Shown here: positions 7,706 through 43,211 of the stretch, in pieces
Layout: each line of letters begins with the position of its first letter
How positions within the stretch are numbered: position 1 is the first letter of the stretch
Source: Deltaproteobacteria bacterium
GTDB lineage: Bacteria; Desulfobacterota; Binatia; UBA9968; JAJDTQ01
Length of the DNA stretch: 44,958 bases
Direction of reading: 5' to 3'
Assembly: GCA_028818775.1 (NCBI GenBank)
Contig: JAPPNE010000107.1
Location: 1 to 44,958 of the forward strand
Made by a program: the position numbers and the translations under genes
The notes under the pieces: generated by a model
What the model saw: only the letters and a program-made list of their open reading frames with translations
The model's database searches: none
What the model was told of the DNA's origin: nothing

Positions 7706-9829
7706 ATGGTCTTGAATGCATCGCCAAATCGGTACTTAGTCGGCGTCGACATTGGCGGCACCTTCACCGACTGCGTTGCCATGGATGCGGGCGGCACCAT
7801 GACCGTGGGCAAGGCGCTGTCCACGCCGGACGACTACTCGGTCGGGGCGCTGAATGCGGTGCGTGACGCCGCCGGAAACCTCGGGCTCGGAGACGAGGAC
7901 GAGCTGCTCGCGTCGGCCCGCCTCTTCTTCCATGCCTGCACCATCGGCGACAACGCGCTTCTAACAGGATCGGGCGCGGTTACCGGCCTGATCACCACCA
8001 GGGGGTTCGCCGACACGCTCCGCATCATGCGCGGGCGCTTCACGGACGGAGTGCCCGAGTCGGAGATCTTTCATCTGTCCCGGCTCGACAAGCCCGCGCC
8101 CATGGTGCCGCGTCCGCTGGTCAAGGAGGTGGACGAGCGGGTGGACTACAAGGGGGCCGTGCTGGTGCGGCTGGACCCGGCCCAGGTGGCAAGGGTCGTG
8201 GAGGAGTTGGTGGCGGACGGCGCCGAGGCCCTCGCCGTGAGCCTTATTTGGTCCGTGGCCAACGAAAGCCACGAACGGGCCATCGCCGACATGGTCGCGG
8301 GGAGCCACCCGGAAGTATTCCTCAGCCTCTCCAGCGAGGTGGCGCCTTACCTGGGTGAGTACGAACGCACCGCCACCACCGTGTTCAACGCGTGCATCGG
8401 GCCGCGCATCTCCACCTACATCAACCGGCTCGGGGCACGGCTTCAGGAGCGCGGGCTGGCGGGCGAACCCCTGATCATGCAGTCCTACGGCGGCGTGCTG
8501 GGAGTCGATGCCACCGCCCGGAACGCCATCGGCACCATCGAGTCGGGTCCCTCGGCCGGAGTCACGGGGAGCGCTTGGCTCGGCCGGCTCATGGACCTGC
8601 CCGACATCCTGGCCACGGACATGGGCGGCACCACGTTCAAGGTGAGCGTCATCCGGGATGGGGTCATCGAGAAGGACTACAAGCCGGTGCTGCTGCGCCA
8701 CCAGATCTACGCCACCAAGATCTGGGTCGAGTCCATCGGCGCGGGCGGCGGCAGCATCGCCTGGACCGATGCCAAGACGGGGCTGCTCAAGGTGGGGCCG
8801 GAGGGCGCCGGCGCCCAGCCGGGCCCCGCGTGCTACGGCCTCGGCGGCGCCGAGCCCACGGTCTCCGACGCCGACCTCGTGCTCGGCTACCTCAATCCCG
8901 ACTACTTCCTGGGCGGGCGCCTGTCGCTGGACGCCGGGCGCGCGCGGCGCGCCATCGAAGAGAAGGTCGCCGAACCCCTGGGCCTCTCGGTGGAGGCCGC
9001 GGCCGGCGGCATCTACCGCATCATCAACGCGCACATGAGCGACCTGATCCGCCGCGCCACGGTGGAGCGGGGCTACGACCCGCGGGACTTCACGCTGTTC
9101 GCCTTCGGCGGTGCCGGGCCGGCGCACGCGGCGCGCTACGCCGCGGAGCTGGGCATCAGGCAGGTGGTGGTGCCGCTCACGGCGTCGGTGCACAGCGCCA
9201 CGGGGCTGGTCAGCTCGGACGTCGTCTACCAGTACGGCAAGTCGGACCGGATGCAGGTGCCGGCGGAACCGGAGCGCGTCAACCGCGCCTTCGACGAACT
9301 GGTGCGGCGCGCCCGCGCCGATCTGGCCAGCGCCGGCTTCGAGGGCGGCAGCGTGCGCATCGAGCGCAGCCTCGACATGCGCTATCGCTACCAGGTGCAC
9401 GAGTTGAACGTGGTCATGCCCGAGGGTACGACGCCCCTTTCGGAAGAGATGCTCAACGGCGTGTACGAACGTTTCGACGACCTGTACGAACGGACCTACG
9501 GCCGCGGCTCCGGCTACCGCGAGGCGGGGAAGGAGATCATGAACTTCCGCCTCACCGCCACCGGCGTGCTGGACAAGCCGCGGATCCAGTCGTACCCTCT
9601 GTCCTCGGCCGCTCCGGACGCCGCGCTGAGGGGCCGCCGCCGGGTTTTCTTCGAGGAGTTCGACGAACCACGGGACACCCCGGTGTACGACTTCGACGCG
9701 TTGCGTCCGGGGAACGAGACGGCCGGTCCCGCCATCATCGAGACCCCGGTGACCACCATCGTGGTAAACCCGGCGGATCGGGCCGTCATGGACGCCTACC
9801 GCAACGTCCGGCTCCTCGTCGGCGGTTGA
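7706..9829 (+). CDS. hyuA: Hydantoinase/oxoprolinase subunit A (HyuA, ATPase subunit)
   Basis: A 707-residue protein of the N-methylhydantoinase/5-oxoprolinase/acetone-carboxylase A-subunit family. It starts with YLVGVDIGGTFTDCV, the phosphate-1 loop of the ASKHA ATPase fold. The middle contains ATDMGGTTFKVS and ESIGAGGGSIAW, and further on FAFGGAGPAHA, all hallmark ATP-binding motifs. In the family this subunit activates the substrate (a cyclic imide, 5-oxoproline or a ketone) by phosphorylation for the partner HyuB. The length matches the family. The ATG at 7706 overlaps nothing, and a GGAGAGGG ribosome site lies within the end of the preceding gene, indicating translational linkage. The substrate could be a hydantoin-like ring or a ketone; the sequence does not discriminate. 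Confidence 0.92.
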   Translation: MVLNASPNRYLVGVDIGGTFTDCVAMDAGGTMTVGKALSTPDDYSVGALNAVRDAAGNLGLGDEDELLASARLFFHACTIGDNALLTGSGAVTGLITTRGFADTLRIMRGRFTDGVPESEIFHLSRLDKPAPMVPRPLVKEVDERVDYKGAVLVRLDPAQVARVVEELVADGAEALAVSLIWSVANESHERAIADMVAGSHPEVFLSLSSEVAPYLGEYERTATTVFNACIGPRISTYINRLGARLQERGLAGEPLIMQSYGGVLGVDATARNAIGTIESGPSAGVTGSAWLGRLMDLPDILATDMGGTTFKVSVIRDGVIEKDYKPVLLRHQIYATKIWVESIGAGGGSIAWTDAKTGLLKVGPEGAGAQPGPACYGLGGAEPTVSDADLVLGYLNPDYFLGGRLSLDAGRARRAIEEKVAEPLGLSVEAAAGGIYRIINAHMSDLIRRATVERGYDPRDFTLFAFGGAGPAHAARYAAELGIRQVVVPLTASVHSATGLVSSDVVYQYGKSDRMQVPAEPERVNRAFDELVRRARADLASAGFEGGSVRIERSLDMRYRYQVHELNVVMPEGTTPLSEEMLNGVYERFDDLYERTYGRGSGYREAGKEIMNFRLTATGVLDKPRIQSYPLSSAAPDAALRGRRRVFFEEFDEPRDTPVYDFDALRPGNETAGPAIIETPVTTIVVNPADRAVMDAYRNVRLLVGG

Positions 9830-9847
9830 GGCACGAAAGGGATTCCC

Positions 9848-11941
9848 ATGGACACGCGCATACACGGCGTCGATCCCGTCACCTTCGAGATCCTGTCGCA
9901 CCGGCTGCACCAGGTCACGCGCGAGATGGGCATTACCCTGGAGCGCACCGGCGGCACCGTCAACACCACCCAGCAGCGGGACTACATGGCGTCCCTGTAC
10001 CGCCCGGACGGCGACATCCTCTCCGCCGGGGCCACCCTGGGACAGCACGTGGTGTGCGCCTCCTACGCGGTGAAGCGCATCATCGAACGCTTCCCGCCGG
10101 ACGAAATCTTCGAGGACGACGTCTTCCTGCTGAACGATCCCTACCTCGCCGCCATCCACCAGTCGGACATCTACGTGGTCTCGCCGATCCACCATGGCGG
10201 GCGGCTGGTGGCCTGGAGCGCCACCTTCGTGCACGTGAACGACGTGGGCGCGCTGTCGCCGGGCGGGGACTCGCCCGACGCCACCGAGATCTTCCACGAG
10301 GGGCTGCGTGTTCCCGGCATCAAGCTCGTGGAGCGCGGCGCGCTGCGCCGGGACGTCTTCGACACCCTCACCAACATGACGCGCCAGCCGGGCATGGTGG
10401 GGCTGGACCTCAAGTGCGAGATCGCCGCCAACAACGTGGCCAAGGCGCGCCTGCGGGAGATGTACGCGCACTACGGCGCCGAGCTGCTCGATGCCGTGGC
10501 CGGCGAGATGATCCGCTACACCGAGGCGATCTTCCGGGAGCGCATCGCGTCGTTCGAGGACGGCGAGTGGACCGAGGAACTGGCGCTGGAGGCCCAGGAC
10601 ACCTGGCGCATGAAGGTGGCGCTGCGCAAGCGCGGAAACCGGCTCATCTTCGACTTCACCGGCACCGACCCCCAGGCGGTGACCGGCGTCAACCTGCCGT
10701 TCCACGGCACCGCCGGTTTCTGTTTCGCCGCGGTGTTGACCACGCTGGTGCACGACCTTCCCAAGAACCACGGGGTGATCCGGCCGCTGGAAGTCATCGC
10801 TCCCGAGGGCACGCTGGTGAACGTCAGCTATCCCGGCCCGGTGTCCCTCAACACCACCTCCTGCGGCTTCAGCATCGGGTTCCTGGCCAGTTCCGTGCTG
10901 ATGCAGATGCTCGGCACCCACGAGCACTGGCGCGACGAGATCGTCACCCCCAACGCCAGCCACCGGAACGGCAAGCACTCGGGGCTGAACCAGTCCGGCC
11001 GCTACTGCGTCTTCAATCTCGCCCACGGCGCCATGGACGGCAACGGCGCCCGCGCCCACGCCGACGGCATCGACTCCGGCGGCAACTACATGAACTGCCC
11101 CAACGCCGAATGGTTCGAGCTGAACTTCCCGGTGCTCTACCTGTTCCGCCGCCACGCGACGGACTCGGCCGGGCCCGGACGCTACCGCGGCGGCCTGGCC
11201 GTGGAGACCGCGCACACGCCCCACGACGCCCCCGAGGGGCGCCTCGGGGGCGTGGCCTACGGCGTGGCCGGACTCAGGAACTCCGGCCACGGCATGTACG
11301 GCGGCTACCCCGGCGCGCCCAGCGTCATCGTGCTGCGGGAAAAGACTCGGGTGCGCGAGGTCATGAGCCGCGACCGCAACGCCGTGGACCTCGACGAGGT
11401 GGGCGGCACCGAGCGCGTCCTGCCGTACTGCAACTTCGAGTTCAACGACGGCGACGTGCTCTACATGCGCGTGGCCAGCGGCGGCGGCTACGGCGACCCG
11501 CTGACGCGCCAGCCGGACCGGGTGCGCGCGGACCTGGTGGACGGAGCGGTCTCGGAGGGCGCGGCGCGGGACATCTACGGGGTTGCATTCAGGCCCGAGA
11601 CACGGGAGGTGGACGACGCGGCAACCGAAGCGTTGCGGCGACGCCTGCGCGGTGGGGACGGCGCGTTGCGGGAACAAGACGGAGCGCGGGACAAGGCGAA
11701 CCGCGCGGCAAGCCGAGCGGCGGTCGTTCCCGGCGGGGACGACACGACGCCGTGCCCGCGGTGCGGCTCCGCCAACGCGCCGATTCAATCAGAAGCGGAC
11801 GGCGCCCTCGAAGAGCATACTTTCCCACCGACCGAGGCAGGCCCGCTCATGAGCGACCTTCACGGCCGCTACCTGTTCGAGAAGCTCTACTGCCCGTCGT
11901 GTCATGTCCTGCTCAAGGCTCACATGGTGTCGGTGACATGA
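9848..11941 (+). CDS. hyuB: Hydantoinase/oxoprolinase subunit B (HyuB) with extra C-terminal four-cysteine domain
   Basis: A 697-residue HyuB-family protein, the catalytic partner of HyuA. The conserved core runs to about residue 570 and includes the opening DPVTFEILSHRL, GDILSAGATLGQHV, FLLNDPY, NGDGA-type and ASGGGYGDPL motifs. Family members are usually about 520-600 residues. Here about 130 extra residues follow: a charged Ala/Arg-rich linker and then a compact module with Cys636-x2-Cys639 and Cys682-x2-Cys685, probably a zinc ribbon. The module's GRYLFEKLYCPSCHVLL segment is loosely reminiscent of acetone-carboxylase gamma subunits. That would suggest a carboxylase-like complex with the third subunit fused on, but this is inference. 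A ribosome site (GAAAGGGA) precedes the ATG, and the gap after hyuA is 18 bases. Confidence 0.9.
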   Translation: MDTRIHGVDPVTFEILSHRLHQVTREMGITLERTGGTVNTTQQRDYMASLYRPDGDILSAGATLGQHVVCASYAVKRIIERFPPDEIFEDDVFLLNDPYLAAIHQSDIYVVSPIHHGGRLVAWSATFVHVNDVGALSPGGDSPDATEIFHEGLRVPGIKLVERGALRRDVFDTLTNMTRQPGMVGLDLKCEIAANNVAKARLREMYAHYGAELLDAVAGEMIRYTEAIFRERIASFEDGEWTEELALEAQDTWRMKVALRKRGNRLIFDFTGTDPQAVTGVNLPFHGTAGFCFAAVLTTLVHDLPKNHGVIRPLEVIAPEGTLVNVSYPGPVSLNTTSCGFSIGFLASSVLMQMLGTHEHWRDEIVTPNASHRNGKHSGLNQSGRYCVFNLAHGAMDGNGARAHADGIDSGGNYMNCPNAEWFELNFPVLYLFRRHATDSAGPGRYRGGLAVETAHTPHDAPEGRLGGVAYGVAGLRNSGHGMYGGYPGAPSVIVLREKTRVREVMSRDRNAVDLDEVGGTERVLPYCNFEFNDGDVLYMRVASGGGYGDPLTRQPDRVRADLVDGAVSEGAARDIYGVAFRPETREVDDAATEALRRRLRGGDGALREQDGARDKANRAASRAAVVPGGDDTTPCPRCGSANAPIQSEADGALEEHTFPPTEAGPLMSDLHGRYLFEKLYCPSCHVLLKAHMVSVT

Positions 11942-20113: not shown

Positions 20114-22081
20114 TCAACTCCAACTCGAGATCAGCAGAGGCTCGGGCCACAGCACGTGCAACAACTCATCGAATACCAGATAGAGGTAGCCTTCGGCCAA
20201 CGCGCCCAGCAGCAGGGCCGTGCGCCAGCGGGCGCCGTAGGCGAAGGCGTAGCCGGCGGTGAAGAGCGGCAGCGTCACGTGGAAGCCGATCAGGAGGATG
20301 CCTCCCACCAGCGCGGCGATCCAGAGGATTACCTCTCCGGTGCGGCGCAGCACGTCGGGCAGGCCGCTGTCGGTCGCGGCCTCGGCCGCGGATCCGCCAA
20401 GGTGCTTCCGGATACGCAGGATGTCCAGCGTGACCTGGAGCAGCGCTAGGGGAATGCCCACCCCCGCCAGGGAGTAGATGATGAGCGCGCTCCGCAGCGG
20501 CCACTCTTGCGCGACGCTCGCCCCCCACGCCAGCAGCGCGATGAAGCCCAGCGTGTACAGGATGTTGCCGGCGCGCAGCCGGGGGTCGTCCGGCGGCGCG
20601 GCCGGGGCGTCGCCGCGCTTGGCCTCGCGCCGCTTGCGGATAACCGGCAGCATGAGAGTGAAGACCACCAGCGCCAGCAGCAACATCACCGAGGGGCGCA
20701 GCAGCCAGGCGAAGTCGTAGCGGGCGATGGAGAGCCAGAGGTAGGTCTCCATCTGGAACCCCAGCACCGCGGCCACGAGCACCGGAGGACGGGGCCAGTC
20801 GAAGAGCTTCATCAGGTAGCCGACGGCCGAGAAGACCAGGAACGCGTACAGGTCTTCGTGGGCGTAGCTGGCGGCGAACGAGGCCGAGGCGCACAGCACC
20901 AGGGTCACCGGCACGATGACGTAGAAGGGCTGGAGCGAGAGCCGGGCGAAGGTGCCGGCGAAGCCCATGGCCAGGCTGGTGGCCATGAGGTTGGAGATCA
21001 CCAGCACCCACACCATGGCCAGGGTCAGGTGAAGTTGGTCGGTGAGCATGCGGCTGCCGGGATGGATGCCGACGGAGACAAAGGCCGCCAGCATGATGGC
21101 CAGGGACGTGCTGCCCGGGATGCCGAAGGCGATGGTGGGGATGAGCGCGCCGCCTTCCTTGGCGTTGTTGGAGCTTTCCGGCGCGATGACGCCGCGCACG
21201 TCGCCGGTGCCGAAGCGCTCGCTCTGCTTCTCGGTCTGCACCGCGTGGGCATAGGCGAACCAGTCGGCGACGCTGCTGCCGAGGCCCGGCAGGACGCCCA
21301 CCCATACGCCGATGGCGCTGCACCGTACCACCATCCACCAGTGCCGGAACACGTCCTTGATGCCTTCCACGAGGCCGCTGCCGAGGTCCTCGGTCTCCGA
21401 GATGCTGGTGCGTCGCACCGCCAGGTCGATGAGCTCGGGCACGGCGAAGAGGCCCAGCCCGATGAGGATGACGTTGACCCCTTCCCACAGGTAGGCGGTG
21501 TCCAGGGAGAACCGTTCGATGGCGGTCTTCTCGTCCACCCCCACCGTGGCGATGAGCAGGCCGAGGATGGCGGCCAGGAGCCCCTTGAGCGGCGCCTTGC
21601 CGCTGAGGACGCCGATGGCGCTGAGGCCCCAGACCACCAGCACGAAGAACTCCGGCGAGCCGAAGCTCAACACCAGCGGGCGCAGGATCGGCAGCGACGC
21701 CACAAGCACGATGGCGCCCAACACGCCGCCCACCGCCGACGCCATGAAGGCGGCGCCGAAGGCGCGCTTGGCTTCGCCCTTGCGGGCCATGGGGTAACCG
21801 TCCAGGATGGTGGCCTGGGAGCCCGCGCTGCCGGGCACGGCGATGAGCACAGAGGGGAAGGTGTTGGCCGTGTTGGATACCGCGCCGATGCCCAGCAGGA
21901 AGGCGATGGCGTGGTAGGGGCTCATGGTCAGGCTGAAGGGGAGGACCACGGTGAGGATGAGCAGCACGCCCACCCCCGGGAGCGCCGCGAACACGCTGCT
22001 GAGGAGCACGCCTCCCACCATCAGCAGCATGGCCTGGGGCTCCAGGATCCCCAAGAGGCCCTGATAAGCGGCCTCGATCAT
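20114..22081 (-). CDS. TTT-family transporter, TctA permease fused to TctB
   Basis: A 655-residue inner-membrane protein. Residues 1-500 are the large permease TctA, with the conserved LPGVGVLLILTVVLP region at the start, SNTANTFPSVL and IPGSAGSQATILDGYPMA, and the mirrored APESSNNAKEGGALIPT and FGIPGST loops. TctA alone is about 500 residues. The last 150 residues begin with a cytoplasmic linker (KRREAKRGDAPAAPP) and then show four transmembrane segments like those of the small subunit TctB. The two normally separate membrane subunits are therefore one polypeptide here. The partner binding protein TctC is encoded directly upstream (22194-23249), so this is a complete tripartite system for a carboxylate, with two VOC proteins and the selenoprotein subunits further upstream. 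Confidence 0.92.
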   Translation of the reverse strand: MIEAAYQGLLGILEPQAMLLMVGGVLLSSVFAALPGVGVLLILTVVLPFSLTMSPYHAIAFLLGIGAVSNTANTFPSVLIAVPGSAGSQATILDGYPMARKGEAKRAFGAAFMASAVGGVLGAIVLVASLPILRPLVLSFGSPEFFVLVVWGLSAIGVLSGKAPLKGLLAAILGLLIATVGVDEKTAIERFSLDTAYLWEGVNVILIGLGLFAVPELIDLAVRRTSISETEDLGSGLVEGIKDVFRHWWMVVRCSAIGVWVGVLPGLGSSVADWFAYAHAVQTEKQSERFGTGDVRGVIAPESSNNAKEGGALIPTIAFGIPGSTSLAIMLAAFVSVGIHPGSRMLTDQLHLTLAMVWVLVISNLMATSLAMGFAGTFARLSLQPFYVIVPVTLVLCASASFAASYAHEDLYAFLVFSAVGYLMKLFDWPRPPVLVAAVLGFQMETYLWLSIARYDFAWLLRPSVMLLLALVVFTLMLPVIRKRREAKRGDAPAAPPDDPRLRAGNILYTLGFIALLAWGASVAQEWPLRSALIIYSLAGVGIPLALLQVTLDILRIRKHLGGSAAEAATDSGLPDVLRRTGEVILWIAALVGGILLIGFHVTLPLFTAGYAFAYGARWRTALLLGALAEGYLYLVFDELLHVLWPEPLLISSWS

Positions 22082-22193: not shown

Positions 22194-23249
22194 TCAACGC
22201 TCTGGGACGTCGTACTTCTTGCGCAGCTTCGACGCGTATTGGAGGACTTCCTTGGGGACGTCGACGATCTGCGGGATGCGCTTGTTCAGCGACTCCCCGG
22301 TGACGGAAGTGAGGTCGAGGCTGAACTGCTTGCGCGCGAGCTTGAGGAACTCGGGGTCATGGACGGCCTTCTGGAAGGCTGCGCGGTAGACCTTGACATA
22401 TTCCGCCGGGGTCTTCGGGGGCAGCGCCTGCCACTTGTCAATGGTCGACGGGCCCATCCACGACTCGTACCCTGCCGTGGCCAGCTTGCCGATTTTCTTT
22501 TCGGCCATGAGTTCGGGGAAGATGGGTACATCCTTGAACGACGAGCGCGGCGAGTACCCGTCAACATTGCGGACGCCCTCCTGGGCGATGAGGTTGATGA
22601 CGCCGGCCTCCTTCAACTCGTTGATGATGTAGGCGTTCTGCGTCCCCAGGACGTCGATCTCTCCCTGGCTGATGGCCTTGACCAGCGCACCCGTGCCGGG
22701 ATAGCCGACGATCCACTTGAGGTTCCAGCCCAGGAACTCCGCGCCCCACACGTTCATGGCCTGCCATGCGCGCGCGCCGCTGATGCCGCCGACGTTGACC
22801 TTGGCCGCTTTCTTGTCCGTCAGCCGCTTGTGGGCGTCCTTGCGGATGAACAGCACGCTGCCGCCGCGGTGAATGCCGCCGATGGCGATGAACTTGCGCG
22901 GGTCGTACTTGATCACCTTCCGCCGGAGCACGTGGGGCTGAATCGGGCTCGAGTCCGTCTGCATGAAAGTCATGCCGTCCGGCTTGATGCGGTTGGCCAG
23001 GTAGTTCGCCGCCTTGATCTTGCCGCCGCCCGCCCCCATGTACTGGTAGACGAAGCGCGGGTTGCCGGGCAGGTACTTCTGCATGAAACGGTTGATGAGC
23101 CGCCCGGAAAGGTCGGTGCCGCCTCCGGCGTTGGAGGCGACGATCACCTTGATGGTCTTCCCTTCGAAGGATACGTCGGCCAGGGCCGGCGCCGCCGCCA
23201 CGGCCCACAGAGCGCAGGCCAGAATCGCGCCTGAAAGAATGCGTGCCAT
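22194..23249 (-). CDS. TctC-type substrate-binding protein of the TTT transporter
   Basis: A 351-residue periplasmic binding protein. Residues 1-24 are a signal peptide ending PALA. The mature protein starts DVSFEGKTIKVIVASNAGGG, the first ligand-contact loop of the family, and YMGAGGGKIKAANYL is the second. AAAGGAGGTGCGAG precedes the ATG at 23249, so this start is preferred to the much longer open frame. It lies 20 bases after the VOC protein gene and 112 bases before the TctA-TctB fusion. Operon position implies that the transported compound is the substrate of the VOC and Grd-like enzymes upstream. Confidence 0.9.
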   Translation of the reverse strand: MARILSGAILACALWAVAAAPALADVSFEGKTIKVIVASNAGGGTDLSGRLINRFMQKYLPGNPRFVYQYMGAGGGKIKAANYLANRIKPDGMTFMQTDSSPIQPHVLRRKVIKYDPRKFIAIGGIHRGGSVLFIRKDAHKRLTDKKAAKVNVGGISGARAWQAMNVWGAEFLGWNLKWIVGYPGTGALVKAISQGEIDVLGTQNAYIINELKEAGVINLIAQEGVRNVDGYSPRSSFKDVPIFPELMAEKKIGKLATAGYESWMGPSTIDKWQALPPKTPAEYVKVYRAAFQKAVHDPEFLKLARKQFSLDLTSVTGESLNKRIPQIVDVPKEVLQYASKLRKKYDVPER

Positions 23250-23269: not shown

Positions 23270-24073
23270 TCAGTGCTCGCTGATATCGATCATCACGCCG
23301 TCCGGGTCGGCGAGCTGGTATTCGCCGAACTTGCACTTGGCGAACAGCTCGAGCCGCGCCTCCGCCTCCGGCCCCGCGCCCACCGGACCGGGGCTCAGGT
23401 AGGGGTTGCGCTTGGACAGCTCCTCGAGCCGGTCCTTCACCGCCTGCACGCTCTCCACCTTGAAGCCGATGTGGTCCAGCGCCGGCCGCTCGATGCCCGT
23501 GCCCGCGTAGTCGGAGATCTTCCACGGCGAGATGATCAGGGTCACCCGGCCGTCGGTCAGGTAGCAGTTGGGATCGTCCGCGGGCTTCTCCGTCTCCAGC
23601 AGGTCGAACACCTCGCGGTAGAACTGCGCCACGCGCTCGGGCTCCACCGCCCGCAGGACGAAGTGCTTCACGTAGCGGTCGGCCTCGCGGTCCCCGTCCA
23701 CGTACACGTCCCGGCGGTTCTCCATCCCTTCCTGGGAGAGGTCGAACACGTTGCCCGCCGGATCGTGGGTGCTCAAGCCGGCGAACGGGCGGTTGCCCGG
23801 ACGCTTGAGGATATGCACCTCCGGGTACTTCTCGGCCATGCGCGCGGCCACGCCCTCGACGTCGTCCACCTCGAAGCCGAAGTGGTCGAACCCCCCCTGG
23901 CGACCGGGCCGGCGCGGGTTGATGTTGATGCCCACGTAGCCGTCGCTCACCACCGAGGCGCTCTCGATGCGCGCGCGCTCGGCGGTCTTCATGCCGAACA
24001 CCGCCTGGTAGAACTTCTCCTCGATGGCGTAGTTCTCGCTTACGATGGCCAGATGCTTGATCCTCGTCGCCAT
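23270..24073 (-). CDS. VOC-superfamily protein with two tandem domains
   Basis: A 267-residue protein with two vicinal-oxygen-chelate modules, at about 1-125 and 135-267. Module 1 begins RIKHLAIVSENY and has GFDHFGFEVDDV; module 2 begins YVKHFVLRAVEPERV and has LDHIGFKVESVQ. These His residues and the later acids are the expected metal ligands, so the protein resembles extradiol dioxygenases, glyoxalases or 4-hydroxyphenylpyruvate-dioxygenase-like enzymes. GGGAGGG precedes the ATG at 24073. It sits between the Grd-like genes and the TTT transporter, all on the same strand. The reaction is not predictable. Confidence 0.85.
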   Translation of the reverse strand: MATRIKHLAIVSENYAIEEKFYQAVFGMKTAERARIESASVVSDGYVGININPRRPGRQGGFDHFGFEVDDVEGVAARMAEKYPEVHILKRPGNRPFAGLSTHDPAGNVFDLSQEGMENRRDVYVDGDREADRYVKHFVLRAVEPERVAQFYREVFDLLETEKPADDPNCYLTDGRVTLIISPWKISDYAGTGIERPALDHIGFKVESVQAVKDRLEELSKRNPYLSPGPVGAGPEAEARLELFAKCKFGEYQLADPDGVMIDISEH

Positions 24074-24215: not shown

Positions 24216-24668
24216 TCACGACCCGGCTGCCGCGTCCCAATCGAACATGCGCCGCCGCCTGCGCGAGTTGAAGTTGATCACCTCCAGCAGCAGGCCGTCG
24301 GGGTCGGAGAAGAAGGTCGCGTAGTAGTCGGGGGAGTACTGCGTGTAGGCCTGCGGTTCGGTGGCCTCGATGCCGGCTGCGCGAAGCTCACGGCAGCCCC
24401 TGTCCACGGCTTCTTCGTCAGCCACGCGGAAGCAGAGGTGCGAGGGCGCCGCCGTGGCCGAGCCCGGCTCCACTGAGGCGTCCTCGCGCGCGACGATCCA
24501 GTAGGTGAGGTGCCGGTTGTCGTAGCGCGCCCGTGGCGACACCTTGTCGGAAGCCCTGCCCTTGCGGAAACCCAGGATCGGCATCACCGTGTCGTAGAAC
24601 GCCTCCGCCACGGCGAGGTCCCGGACGGGAATGAAGATATGGTCGATGCAGATGACTTCAACGGGCAT
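24216..24668 (-). CDS. VOC-superfamily protein, single domain
   Basis: A 150-residue glyoxalase/VOC protein. ICIDHIFIPVRDL gives the first metal His, PSHLCFRVADEE the second and LLLEVINFN the acidic ligand, matching the classic HxE metal triad arrangement. The frame's first Met after the grdE stop is at 24668 with an 8-base gap, so it is probably co-translated. A longer open reading frame upstream runs antisense-like through grdE and is an artefact. It may act on the product of the Grd-like component. A second, two-domain VOC protein follows 142 bases downstream. Confidence 0.82.
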   Translation of the reverse strand: MPVEVICIDHIFIPVRDLAVAEAFYDTVMPILGFRKGRASDKVSPRARYDNRHLTYWIVAREDASVEPGSATAAPSHLCFRVADEEAVDRGCRELRAAGIEATEPQAYTQYSPDYYATFFSDPDGLLLEVINFNSRRRRRMFDWDAAAGS

Positions 24669-24676
24669 GGCAACTC

Positions 24677-26008
24677 TCAGTGCGCCCGGCACGTCCAGTC
24701 GCGGGCGCCCCACAGGTCGGTGCCGCCGATGATCGCGTCGGTGGCGTCCAGCGTGATGGCGTCCAGGGCCGAAACCACGGGGGCGCCGGGGTAGTTGAGC
24801 ACCTGGAGTTCCCGGTAGGCGCCGGCCACCCGGTCGGCGGGCGGAAGCTCCAGGATGCGGTCGCGGCTGCCGGTGCTCACCACCGCGTCGGCGTGGGTGT
24901 CGTAGAACAGCAGCGGCGAGTCGATGCCCTCCTGTCCGCCGTACTCGTACGTGACCAGCACCGTCCTGATGCCCTTCTCCTCGCATGCGCGCACCGTCAG
25001 CATCACCTCCAGGAATGCGTTGCCCGAGCCGAGCCAAGTGATGAGGGCAGCGTCCGCCCCCAGCGCTCGCGCCACTTGCGACGCGTTGTGCGCCGCGACT
25101 TCCTTCTCCCGGAAGACCTCGAAACGGATGCGCTGCAGGATGACGCCAGCGAAATCGACCCGCTTGCCGTGCTCCCGGGAAAGGCGCATGGCCAGCGGCT
25201 GGTTTTGCCAGTCCCAGGTGGTGGGGTAGTAGGCGATGGTCTTGAGGGTGTTGCCGGTGACCGCGCCGTCCATCAGCTCGTTGGGGTGCACCACGGTGGC
25301 CAGGGACTCGCGCACCGGCAGCCCGTAGTATCCCAGGCCGGTGGGCAGGTGTTCCGACTCGGTGATGCAGCCCACGATCACCACGGCCTTGGGCAGATCC
25401 GCGTTGCCGTGCGCGGCGCCGAACGTTTCGACGTTGGCGGGTTCGGCCGCGGCCGTGGTCTCGGCCAGCCTCTGCGCAACGCGGTACTCGGCGGCCTGGA
25501 TCACCTGGTGCGCCTCGGCCTCGATCAGGTCCGACGGCAGCCGCAGGTTCAGCACCAGGCTCGGAACGCGGCTGAAGCCCGACAGGTCGGCCCCCGGCCC
25601 CCACATGTCCAGGATGGCGCTCCGCTGCGCGGTGGTGCCGGTGCGGATGGTTCCCTCGTAGGCGGCGGTGGTGATGAGGGTCATGCCCGTGAGACGGTGG
25701 GTGCGGCCTCGGCCCACGGGCGCCACGGGACTGGTGATGCCGGGGAACACCTGCGTGTCGCCGCCCACCTTCACCCTGGGCTCCACCACGTCGCGGATGC
25801 CGGTGACCCGCACCCGCTCGCCCGGGCGGACGATGTCGAGCCCGGCCTCGAGGATACGGGGATCCCGCGACGCCAGCTCCACCAGCTCGGCTTCCGCCAC
25901 CTCCAGCGCGCCGCCGGCGTATTGCAGCGTGCCGCCGAAGCGAAGCTCCCGCACCGGGAACTCCGCCAGCTCCAGCAGCCTCGCGTGCCGGGCGTTGCCA
26001 GCGCTCAT
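24677..26008 (-). CDS. GrdE-like proprotein (glycine/sarcosine/betaine reductase component B, pyruvoyl-forming)
   Basis: A 443-residue member of the GrdE/GrdG/GrdI family. In the known enzymes this proprotein is cleaved at a Cys, producing a new pyruvoyl N-terminus that binds the amine substrate as a Schiff base. Here the likely cleavage Cys is Cys214 in KAVVIVGCITES. It is flanked by conserved blocks, including RVRVTGIRDVVEPRVKVGG at 65-83 and the C-terminal LSYPGAPVV-type region. The ATG at 26008 overlaps the stop of the selenoprotein gene (ATGA, 26005-26008), so the two subunits are translationally coupled. The real substrate may be glycine, sarcosine, betaine or an unknown amine. Confidence 0.86.
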   Translation of the reverse strand: MSAGNARHARLLELAEFPVRELRFGGTLQYAGGALEVAEAELVELASRDPRILEAGLDIVRPGERVRVTGIRDVVEPRVKVGGDTQVFPGITSPVAPVGRGRTHRLTGMTLITTAAYEGTIRTGTTAQRSAILDMWGPGADLSGFSRVPSLVLNLRLPSDLIEAEAHQVIQAAEYRVAQRLAETTAAAEPANVETFGAAHGNADLPKAVVIVGCITESEHLPTGLGYYGLPVRESLATVVHPNELMDGAVTGNTLKTIAYYPTTWDWQNQPLAMRLSREHGKRVDFAGVILQRIRFEVFREKEVAAHNASQVARALGADAALITWLGSGNAFLEVMLTVRACEEKGIRTVLVTYEYGGQEGIDSPLLFYDTHADAVVSTGSRDRILELPPADRVAGAYRELQVLNYPGAPVVSALDAITLDATDAIIGGTDLWGARDWTCRAH

Positions 26009-27333
26009 GACGCCGCGTCCGGCGTGAACACGGTGCTCTCCTCCACCTCTTCCTCGAGGGCCTTGAGAGCGGTCTCGACGATGGACTTGCGCAGCTTCTC
26101 GTCGACCTCCGGCGGCAGGCTCGGGTCGCCGCACGGATGGGGGATCTTCACGCCCTTGACGATGCGGCTGGCGCCCACCTGTTCCGCCAGCGGGAACATG
26201 GCGCTGATCATCGACACGGGAACTCCGGCACGGTCCAATTCCTTGCTGATCACAGCTCCGCTGCGACTGCAGGTCCCTCACGTGCTCACCAACAGCGCGG
26301 CGTCCACGCTGTTGGCCTTGAGCTCCGCGGCGATCTCCTCGCCCACCCGCTTCATGGCCGCGGGCGAGCCCTGGTTGCCGGGTATGACGTAGTAGGCGGG
26401 GTAGAGATCCTCGTACTTCCCTTCCTGCTGAAGCTCCCGCAGGGCGTCCAGGGGAACGCCGTAGAGCGGGTTGGCGTTCATGTTGGCCACGTTGTAGCCG
26501 CCGTGGACCGCTTCCCACATGCCCGGCTCCATGGTCTTCAATTCCGCCACCGGATACTTGCGCCAGAACGTATTGCGGAAGGTCTTGAAGCCGTCCGGGT
26601 TGCCCCACGGCACCACGCCGCTGGTGGTGACCAGGGCGATCTTGGCCCTGCCCACGTCCTTGACCGCGGCGGCCGGCGCCACCCGGTCCCAGGTCTGCAT
26701 GGGAATTTCGGTGGCGAAGGGTTTGCCCTCGATCTTGTCCAGCAGCATGTCCAGAGCCCGGTCCGCGCCGGTCCGGCCGCTGCGCTCCTGGAAGCGGATG
26801 CCCCGCGGCAGGTAGCCCTCGTCCTCGGCCGCGCCCACGGGTTCATCCTGGAGCCGCCTGAGAACGAAGCGGGCGAGTTCTTCCAGCGCCTTGCTCATGC
26901 CCGCCGCGGTCTCCGTGGTGGGGAAGAGGAACAGCCGCGCGTCGTGGTACTCGCGGTACGCGTCCACCGCCGGGTTGTCCTCGTGCATGGCGGTCACGCA
27001 CACGCGCTCCAGTTCGGCCGCGACCATGTGGCCGATCTCGACGCAGGCCAGCCCGTAGCGCCCGGCGTTGAACGCCGGCCCCAGCACCACCACGTCCGCC
27101 TCGGCCGCCACGATCTCCCGCAGCAGCGCCGCCCGCGCCTCCTTGGGCTCTTCGTGGAAATGGTTGTCGCCGAAGTAGATGGTGGGCGCCACCTCCGCCT
27201 GGCCCTCCAGCAGCCGCTGCAGGCCGCGCGACGGGCCGGCGAGGGCGTCCAGGGTTCCGGCGGGGACGTCCGCCTTCTCCTCCCCGCCGATGCCGGCGAA
27301 GAACTGGTTCACGACGTGTGCCACGCGCTTCAT
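26005..27333 (-). CDS. GrdB-like selenoprotein with in-frame UGA (component B of glycine/sarcosine/betaine reductase type)
   Basis: A 442-residue selenoprotein. Read straight through, the UGA at 26278-26280 is codon 352, giving DAALLVST-U-GTCSRSGAV. This matches the UGTC active-site motif of GrdB, GrdF and GrdH. The family sequence continues without a frame change after the UGA for 90 codons (IPHPCGDPSLPPE, KALEEEVEE) to the true stop at 26005. Known relatives are about 430-440 residues, so the full length fits. Upstream parts show typical blocks (MKRVAHVVNQFFAG, FGDNHF, GPAFNAGRYG, ANMNANPLYGVP). The second Cys of the classic UxxCxxC is Ser here. AAGGAGGCC precedes the ATG. In known enzymes component B reductively cleaves the C-N bond of an amino compound bound to GrdE, transferring a carboxymethyl group to selenoprotein GrdA; no GrdA, GrdC or GrdD is in the window. 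Confidence 0.9.
26249..26267 (-). promoter_or_regulatory. Candidate bacterial SECIS hairpin after the UGA
   Basis: On the coding strand the 19 bases starting 11 bases after the UGA read GTCGCAGCGGAGCTGTGAT. They can form an 8-bp stem (two G-U pairs) with a GGA apical loop at about 19-21 bases after the UGA. Bacterial SECIS elements require such a hairpin with a G in the apical loop at roughly this distance for SelB binding. Confidence 0.55.
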
Positions 27334-29202: not shown

Positions 29203-30423
29203 ATGGCGATGACGACGCGGGAGGAGAACGCGCTCCTCACCCAGACCGGGCGGGGCACTGCCATGGGCGAGTTGCTCCGGCGTTACTGGTGGCCGGTGGG
29301 CATCTCCGCGCACCTGAAGGACAAGCCCACGTTCATCCGGGTGATGGGCGAGGACTTGGTACTGTTCCGGGACGGCAGGGGCCGGGCCGGGGTGCTGGGA
29401 GCGTACTGTGCGCACCGGCGCGCGAACCTGTGCTTGGGGGACGTGGAAGCGGGCGGCCTGCGCTGCCGGTACCACGGGTGGCTCTACGACGTCGAGGGCC
29501 GTCTCCTGCAGACTCCCGGAGAGCCCCCGGAGAGCACGCTCAAGGACGGCATCCGCCAGCTCGCCTATCCGGTGGAGGAACTGGGCGGCCTCGTCTTCGC
29601 TTATCTCGGCCCCGAGCCCGCGCCGCTCCTTCCCCGCTACGACTTCCTCGTGGGCGACGGCGAGACCTACGTCACGGTGCAGGGTCTTCAGGACTGCAAC
29701 TGGCTCCAGTGCGTGGAGAACGGCCTCGACCCCGTGCACCCGAGCTTCACCCACGGCGGCGCGTGGCCGGACATCGCCAGCACCGAGCCCGACCTGGGAT
29801 TCGAGGAAACGGAGTGGGGGCTCGTCTACAAGGCCTACCGCAAGTCCGACAAGGCCGGTGAGTTCAACTACCGCGAGCATCACCTGCTGATGCCGGGCAT
29901 AAGCTGCGGCGGCAGCGGCGGGCGCTATCTCAAGGGGCCTTCCGGCGGCACGCCGGTGTCGGCCGCGCGCTGGAGCGTGCCCATCGACGACACACATACG
30001 CTGCTGATGCGCGTGCGCTTCAAGCCCGCGGACAATCCCGGCAAGTACGAAGGCGACCCGTTCAGCAAGCGCTGGAAGCCGCCCGAGGACTTCATCCAGC
30101 CCTACAAGGAGTACCGGGACTCCGACAATCCGGTGCTCGGCTACGAGATCCCGCCGCTCCACTTCATCGAGGACGGCATGGTGGTGGACAGCCTCGGCCC
30201 GGTGGTGGACCGGGAAAACGAGAACCTCGGGCCCACCATCGACGACGGCATCATCCGCCTGCGCAACATGTACTTGAGGGAGATGGAGAACGTGCGGCTC
30301 GGGCGCGACCCCAAGAATGTCTTTCGCGATCCCGCGAAGAATGAGAATGTGGTCATCACGGCCTACGAGCGATGGGTTTCTCACGCCGAACGACAGGAGC
30401 TTGAGGGTTCGGCGTCATCGTAA
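29203..30423 (+). CDS. Rieske non-heme iron oxygenase, alpha subunit
   Basis: A 406-residue ring-hydroxylating oxygenase. The Rieske [2Fe-2S] site is formed by Cys69-x-His71 and Cys88-x2-His91. The catalytic iron site follows in the VENGLDPVHPSFTHGG segment, with the bridging Asp and the two His residues. Length and layout match stand-alone oxygenase components of the phthalate/vanillate-demethylase type. GGGAGGTGG precedes the ATG. It starts the cluster oxygenase, cupin, binding protein, permease, so the imported compound is probably the substrate. No reductase or ferredoxin gene is adjacent; electrons must come from elsewhere. It resembles the second oxygenase at 41982-43211 in architecture. 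Confidence 0.93.
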   Translation: MAMTTREENALLTQTGRGTAMGELLRRYWWPVGISAHLKDKPTFIRVMGEDLVLFRDGRGRAGVLGAYCAHRRANLCLGDVEAGGLRCRYHGWLYDVEGRLLQTPGEPPESTLKDGIRQLAYPVEELGGLVFAYLGPEPAPLLPRYDFLVGDGETYVTVQGLQDCNWLQCVENGLDPVHPSFTHGGAWPDIASTEPDLGFEETEWGLVYKAYRKSDKAGEFNYREHHLLMPGISCGGSGGRYLKGPSGGTPVSAARWSVPIDDTHTLLMRVRFKPADNPGKYEGDPFSKRWKPPEDFIQPYKEYRDSDNPVLGYEIPPLHFIEDGMVVDSLGPVVDRENENLGPTIDDGIIRLRNMYLREMENVRLGRDPKNVFRDPAKNENVVITAYERWVSHAERQELEGSASS

Positions 30424-41981: not shown

Positions 41982-43211
41982 TCATTCGGACGGGGCGCCG
42001 TTCTCCGCGTCCGGCTTCGGCGGGTAGGTCCGGATTCCCGTGAACGAGTCCATGCGTATCAGCCGGTCGCTCTCCTCCGGCGAAAGTACCCCTTGCGGCC
42101 GCAACCCCTGCTGCGCCCGCGCGACGGCGTTCAGGATGATGCGGCGCTGGAGGATGATGCCCTTGTCGGACGCCGCCAACCGTTCCTCGCGGCCGGCGAC
42201 ATTGCCTTGGGTGGACTGGGTCATGATGTCCTCGAGGCGCACGCTGCCCCGAAACGGCGACAGCGGCCGGCGGTCGTGCTCGGGCTTTTCCGCGGTGGCC
42301 ACCGGCCGTCGGGACGGCGCCAGCTTGGCCATGAAGTCGGGATCCGGCCCGGTGTAGTGGTCCACCGTGTACAGCGTAAAGTGGTCATCGTCGTCCGGCG
42401 TGATGAACATCCAGTGCGCGTTCCTGGAGCCACGGGCCAGGGCTTCCCTGGGCTCCTTGAAGTGGGTGAACTCGGTGTCGCCGATCTGCATCACGCTGGG
42501 CAGCGCGTAGCTTTTCTCGTCCACGTAGCTCATGCCCGGCTCGGGGGCGGGCTTGTTCGATACCACCTTCATGCCGTAGTCCGTCTCCACGGCATCGAAC
42601 GGCGGCACGTCCTTGGCGTTGAAGAACCAGCTCCGCCAGGTGCCGTCGTCCGGATCGGAGAGGTGCAGGGTGGAGAAGTGGGCAGGGTCGGCGCCGTTCT
42701 CGATGAAGTTGTACCAGTTGTAGTCGTAGTGGCGCGCCGCCTCGATGCGCCGTTGACCGCCGGGCTCCGCCAGGGGCGCATACCGCGGCAACGGCGGCTC
42801 CAGGTCCGGCGGCCCGAGGTAGGCGAAGATCAGCCCGCCCTGCTCCCGCACCGGGTAGGCGAGGTGGCGCACCTTCTCGTGGAACACGCTCCCCGGCGGC
42901 TCCGCGGGCTGCTCCAGGCACGCGCCCGCCACGTCGAAAAGCCAGCCGTGGTACGGGCAGCGCAGCCCCGAGGGCTCGACATCGCCGTACTCCAACGAGG
43001 TGCCCCGGTGCGGACAGTGGAGCCCCAGCAGGCCGAGCCGTCCCTCGCCGTCGCGGAACAGCACCAGGTCCTCTCCGAGAACCCGCACCCGCATGGGAAT
43101 GTCCCGCAGGTCGTCGCCGCGGCCCACCGCCATCCAGTAGCGCCGGAACCACTCGCCGGCGGGCGTCCCCCGGCTCACCCGGGCGAGATCACGCGCGGTC
43201 AGCGCTGCCAT
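41982..43211 (-). CDS. Rieske non-heme iron oxygenase, alpha subunit
   Basis: A 409-residue ring-hydroxylating oxygenase. The Rieske site is Cys66-x-His68 and Cys85-x2-His88, and the catalytic site is in NFIENGADPAHFSTLHLSD with the Asp and His ligands. The layout matches phthalate-dioxygenase-type enzymes, with a C-terminal extension containing VLSPEESDRLIRMDSFTG. AGGAGATAC precedes the ATG at 43211. Flanked by two epimerases, 31 and 73 bases away, it is probably part of one operon with them and the 3-hydroxyanthranilate dioxygenase. The reductase partner is not in the window. Confidence 0.93.
   Translation of the reverse strand: MAALTARDLARVSRGTPAGEWFRRYWMAVGRGDDLRDIPMRVRVLGEDLVLFRDGEGRLGLLGLHCPHRGTSLEYGDVEPSGLRCPYHGWLFDVAGACLEQPAEPPGSVFHEKVRHLAYPVREQGGLIFAYLGPPDLEPPLPRYAPLAEPGGQRRIEAARHYDYNWYNFIENGADPAHFSTLHLSDPDDGTWRSWFFNAKDVPPFDAVETDYGMKVVSNKPAPEPGMSYVDEKSYALPSVMQIGDTEFTHFKEPREALARGSRNAHWMFITPDDDDHFTLYTVDHYTGPDPDFMAKLAPSRRPVATAEKPEHDRRPLSPFRGSVRLEDIMTQSTQGNVAGREERLAASDKGIILQRRIILNAVARAQQGLRPQGVLSPEESDRLIRMDSFTGIRTYPPKPDAENGAPSE

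Follow-up and report, generated by a model that had tools for sequence, protein, structure and literature searches.

A gene of a 'Ca. Binatia' genome that ordinary gene calling divides in two very likely gives rise to a single continuous selenoprotein, and the likely role of this protein, with the chemistry proposed below, is that of catalytic beta subunit in a substrate-specific B component of the glycine/sarcosine/betaine reductase kind. The gene is located on a contig of 44,958 nt (the window, i.e., the whole stretch of DNA that was analysed) from a 4.10-Mb 'Ca. Binatia' metagenome-assembled genome (MAG) with a completeness of 97.5%; its named relatives, MAGs labelled 'Ca. Binatia' or 'Deltaproteobacteria', share 61–96% protein identity with it. 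On its own, the beta protein, by its sequence, adds a member to an already well-known family of selenoproteins. Considered together with its partner subunit, its clade and the absence of GrdD, it is best read as part of a variant of the glycine/betaine reductase kind that would operate without the cofactor-forming site and without GrdD. The features of the beta gene and its operon are listed in Table 1.

Table 1. Features of the beta gene and the adjoining operon (positions in the window).
Feature	Position	Strand	Basis
Beta subunit (GrdB/F/H family), predicted Sec at codon 352, 442 aa	26005..27333	-	ORFs, profile matches
In-frame TGA, probably read as selenocysteine	26278..26280	-	Sequence; TGA in 71/71 relatives
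Shine–Dalgarno-like AAGGAGG upstream of beta start codon	27340..27346	-	Sequence
Bacterial-type SECIS hairpin, 8-bp stem, GGA loop 26259-26257	26249..26267	-	Folding; pairing across 71 genes
Alpha subunit of B component (PF09338, GrdE/G/I-like), without Asn-Cys	24677..26008	-	Profiles, alignment
VOC/glyoxalase-fold protein, same operon	24216..24668	-	Profiles; retained at the B pair in genomes of the same genus
Second VOC-fold protein, two half-domains	23270..24073	-	Profiles; same-genus context
TctC/Bug-like solute receptor	22194..23249	-	Inspection of sequence and context; no Pfam/NCBIfam match at 0.001
Fused TctA-TctB-like permease, tripartite tricarboxylate transporter	20114..22081	-	Profile matches

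The beta frame begins with ATG at 27333, preceded by a strong ribosome-binding site, and ends with TGA at 26007-26005 of the minus strand; its sole internal stop is the TGA at 26280-26278, preceded by DAALLVST and followed by GTCSRSGAV...IPHPCGDPSLPPE. ORF calling with translation table 11 yields an ORF of 351 aa (26278-27333) and a GTG-initiated ORF of 82 aa (26005-26253). Residues 1–351 match positions 1–345 of the TIGR01918 profile (E 1.2e-94), and the 90 residues 3' of the TGA, scored alone, match positions 347–430 (E 4.8e-27); since the two halves abut on the profile, the TGA is located exactly at the Sec position of the family. An open frame of 90 codons after the TGA has an estimated chance of roughly one in ten in such GC-rich DNA and is by itself weak evidence, whereas the homology on both sides is not of a kind that arises by chance. 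The uninterrupted frame of 442 residues, its splitting by ordinary gene calling and the family sequence on either side of the TGA had all been described by the sequence-only reading of this DNA and were borne out. As a practical warning, standard gene calling truncates such catalytic subunits just 5' of the Sec codon. In the region 7706-11941, two neighbouring genes share a frame with a TGA at 9827 between them; by eye, they resemble a pair of the hydantoinase A/B type with an ordinary stop and start rather than a second selenoprotein gene. From nine orthologs, AlphaFold2 produced a model of poor quality (mean pLDDT 56.5), and sequence search found no relative of beta or alpha with a solved structure.

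Profile searches of the same assembly revealed the genes selA (582 bits), selB (388 bits) and selD (372 bits), adjacent to one another on contig C61, and tRNA-Sec (selC) on contig C13 with 73 bits, above the Rfam cut-off. The gene selD (L057:5556-6584) contains one in-frame TGA, so selenophosphate synthetase is probably itself a selenoprotein. Two more full-length GrdB-type genes, each with a TGA, were found in the host genome, on contigs C177 and C150. Genome-wide reassignment of UGA, for example to Trp or Gly, would give an open frame indistinguishable from that of Sec decoding but is hardly conceivable and already contradicted, since TGA terminates many predicted genes of the host genome, the codon coincides with the position at which the family is known to carry Sec, and SelA, SelB, SelD and tRNA-Sec are present. 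A short PrdB-like gene with an in-frame TGA (contig C23, L056:1123-1722; TIGR04483, 116 bits against a cut-off of 300), adjoining cupin- and VOC-like genes, likely encodes another selenoprotein. As for respiration, a search of the whole host assembly gave no heme-copper oxidase subunit I; two Rieske-type oxygenase-like genes of the window (29203-30423 and 41982-43211) suggest some oxygen use by the host.

The Sec codon is TGA in all 71 distinct GrdB-type genes compared, including those from independent assemblies of close relatives; the set comprises relatives together with genes of Clostridia, Enterococcus and Photobacterium. Three apparent Cys variants at this codon proved to be false matches to a later CGDPSL motif and were removed from the set. 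Among six close orthologs of the same length, substitutions 3' of the TGA lie mostly at third codon positions, and six ortholog pairs have dN of 0–0.027 against dS of 0.15–0.38 (dN/dS below about 0.11), values indicating that the codons downstream of the TGA are under purifying selection. A pseudogene, a nonsense mutation or a sequencing error would agree with the two ORFs of ordinary gene calling; however, the presence of this TGA in 71/71 genes, independent assemblies included, the purifying selection after it and the complete Sec machinery of the genome already contradict this explanation, which is very improbable.

The SECIS hairpin begins about 10 nt 3' of the UGA, with a conserved GGN loop 19–21 nt past this codon, at nt 22–24 counted from its U. 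In this hairpin, nt 19, which opens a Ser/Cys/Gly codon, pairs with nt 27, the synonymous third position of an Ala codon, and the pair is maintained in 71/71 genes as AGC+GCT (58), TGC+GCA (12) or GGC+GCC (1), while GCT and GCA account for just 13% and 11%, respectively, of Ala codon usage in the same genes. Since the pair changed its state about three times independently on the tree, the weight of the hairpin lies in a synonymous base held over long divergence and not in many covariation events. The single-sequence folding z-score of the window hairpin (-0.93) is modest and unremarkable. The sequence-only reading had proposed that the UGA is decoded as selenocysteine and had named the absence of Sec machinery as the main finding that would speak against it; selA, selB, selC and selD are all present, and the Sec genes, the invariant TGA, the purifying selection and the hairpin together support the proposal. 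We infer Sec decoding of the beta UGA from this well-supported set of observations, about as firmly as DNA permits.

Beta matches the broad selenoprotein B models TIGR01918 (434 bits, cut-off 65) and PF07355 (363 bits, cut-off 22) but is below the cut-offs of all specific models, namely, GrdB (407/602 bits), GrdF (411/800) and GrdH (384/775); reference proteins reach 946 bits (Acetoanaerobium GrdB), 810 bits (Acetoanaerobium GrdH) and 858 bits (Peptoclostridium GrdF) on their own models. Its motif UGTCSRSG is of the type UxxCxxS, in which Ser replaces the second Cys of UxxCxxC, while the six references, from clostridia, enterococci and Photobacterium, read UGTCTRCG (UxxCxxC). In a quick tree, beta is placed in a 37-row Binatia clade (SH-aLRT 100), separate from every reference protein; UxxCxxS is found in nearly all members of this clade, and in other Binatia clades the first Cys is lost (UGTS) or both Cys are retained. 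Of the earlier description of the protein as complete and GrdB-type, membership in the selenoprotein B family stands, but assignment to glycine reductase proper does not, given the GrdB score and the missing UxxCxxC. The comparison with GrdB, GrdF and GrdH suggested there likewise gave a match to the broad family and missed each specific cut-off.

The alpha gene, the start of which overlaps the beta stop by ATGA, encodes a protein matching PF09338 (Gly_reductase) with 298 bits. The glycine-type alpha, GrdE, is a pro-protein cleaved to yield a pyruvoyl group (PMC9908766), while GrdI of betaine reductase and FarE of fluoroacetate reductase are described as lacking such processing (PMC10838667). 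The Asn-Cys processing site is absent from alpha, which has GAVTGNTLKTIAYYP where GAITSGNCVAPCDK stands in references. In an alignment of 85 alphas, it is absent from every Binatia alpha and from two betaine-type references and present in four glycine- and sarcosine-type references. The CIT motif at alpha residues 214–216 was rejected as a processing site, being located at another position in the GrdG alignment. Since the Binatia alphas lack Asn-Cys, the substrate is presumably not bound as a Schiff base on alpha, and an amine substrate like glycine is thus unlikely. Additional alpha genes without a beta of their own were observed beside a B pair in the loci L103, L109, L113, L119 and L150, in some cases with solute-receptor genes in between.

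The genes of the remaining components were also found in the host genome: GrdA (NF040748, 211 bits against 130), with a TGA in the motif CFVUT, and GrdC, or component C beta (NF040746, 508 bits against 450). They adjoin each other on contig C21, apart from the B pair. In five relatives (L105, L113, L117, L119 and L141), genes of the beta clade are arranged as beta-alpha-grdC-grdA, which links the B component to components A and C; the partnership of the host B pair with the distant grdC-grdA genes is proposed from these relatives. GrdA was found in 24 of 39 Binatia genomes, and GrdC above the cut-off in 22 of 39. GrdD (component C alpha) and GrdC constitute protein C, by which acetyl phosphate is formed (PMC9908766); GrdD was found above the cut-off in none of the 39, including one 1-contig and one 4-contig genome. 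As a control, a true GrdD scored 552 bits against the cut-off of 350, and four weak matches were inspected and read as PlsX. A diverged enzyme outside the GrdD model could do the work of GrdD. In one 8.3-Mb Binatia relative, G033, 20 GrdB-type genes were found (L131-L146), sometimes with several B pairs in a row, and this set looks like a substrate-diversified family.

Shared family and subunit pairing, canonical GrdA and GrdC and the presence of acetate kinase in the host genome would also agree with an ordinary but diverged B subunit of glycine, sarcosine or betaine reductase, with release of acetyl phosphate. This is unlikely: beta is far below the GrdB, GrdF and GrdH cut-offs, which true references exceed, and belongs to a separate clade; the missing pyruvoyl site excludes the known mechanism of glycine and sarcosine reductases, but not that of betaine reductase; GrdD was not found in the 39 genomes; and acetate kinase was not found in the near-complete genomes G001 and G003, the two most contiguous of the same genus.

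The genes of alpha, two VOC-fold proteins, the TctC-like receptor and the TctA-TctB permease are located on one strand with short gaps, and this order is conserved in the same-genus genome G003 (L123). The paralogous B pair on contig C177 is likewise followed by TctC- and TctA-like genes, and NMT1/SsuA-type receptors adjoin B pairs in other relatives. Such transporter and receptor genes beside B pairs suggest that the substrates are small organic acids, or compounds related to them, that are taken up from outside.

Sponges are known for organohalogens, and sponge hosts, together with a haloacid dehalogenase type II gene near the L105 cluster, would suit a FarB/FarE-like reductive dehalogenase with haloacids as substrates. 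In agreement with this reading, processing cysteines are missing from the known FarE, as are the CxxC cysteines from FarB (PMC10838667). It is nevertheless improbable, since alpha scores about 112 bits (112.6) on the FarE model with a cut-off of 675, the radical SAM and antiporter genes of the far operon were not seen beside the B pair, and the neighbouring dehalogenase occurs in just one relative.

For the variant reductase preferred here, the proposed mechanism is modelled on the known glycine reductase scheme (PMC13188914). SelB and tRNA-Sec would decode the UGA at the SECIS hairpin within the coding region, and the B component, formed by beta and the translationally coupled alpha, would bind a small carboxylate, for which the transporter encoded in this operon is the probable importer. 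Sec352, as the selenolate, would displace a good leaving group at the alpha-carbon of the substrate; because alpha is unable to form pyruvoyl, primary and secondary amines are improbable as this group, and a quaternary ammonium, a halide or similar is more likely. The carboxyalkyl group would then move to the Sec of GrdA, which would be reduced by a thioredoxin system, and GrdA and GrdC would yield an acyl group held by GrdC as a thioester. With GrdD missing, release of the acyl group through the established acetyl phosphate pathway is improbable; as GrdC is FabH-like, transfer to coenzyme A may be guessed.

A broader proposal, tentative and somewhat doubtful, is that Binatia possess up to 20 carbonyl-free, Sec-dependent B components per genome, served by one or two GrdA/GrdC and no GrdD, with the acyl group passing to a non-phosphate acceptor such as coenzyme A; these would be reductases of C-N, C-X or other bonds for carbon acquisition and not for Stickland-type energy conservation. 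In the literature consulted, enzymes of the glycine reductase type are described mainly from anaerobes making acetyl phosphate from amino acids. The sponge-associated and groundwater lineage would have kept the selenoenzyme core, multiplied the substrate-binding pair and dispensed with pyruvoyl formation and with the subunit that releases acetyl phosphate, which, if true, opens a set of selenium-dependent reductions without assigned substrates. A literature search found no paper connecting Binatota with selenoproteins, and glycine reductase is not mentioned in the Binatota papers searched.

Among known systems, D-proline reductase PrdB (TIGR04483) shares distant homology with beta near the Sec site, but the score is 85 bits against 300, and PrdB is about half as long. 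Similar to glycine reductase GrdB/GrdE (TIGR01917), the present system has Sec in UGTC, a beta-alpha pair and GrdA and GrdC in the genome; it differs in the sub-threshold GrdB score, UxxCxxS in place of UxxCxxC, the lack of Asn-Cys in alpha and the lack of GrdD. Sarcosine reductase GrdF/GrdG (NF040794/NF040793) has the same Sec site and provides the top specific model for alpha, although the score of 202 bits is below the cut-off of 780, that of beta is below the GrdF cut-off, and the SGNCVAPC processing site of GrdG is absent. Betaine reductase GrdH/GrdI (NF040795) likewise has an unprocessed alpha without a pyruvoyl site; unlike it, beta misses the GrdH cut-off and has lost UxxCxxC, the transporter is tripartite instead of BCCT, and GrdD is absent. 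Fluoroacetate reductase FarB/FarE (PMC10838667) resembles the present pair in an alpha without processing cysteines, in active-site Cys loss in beta and in the predicted use of GrdA and GrdC, and differs in the low match of alpha to FarE, in the operon partners and in that the present beta retains the first Cys of UxxC.
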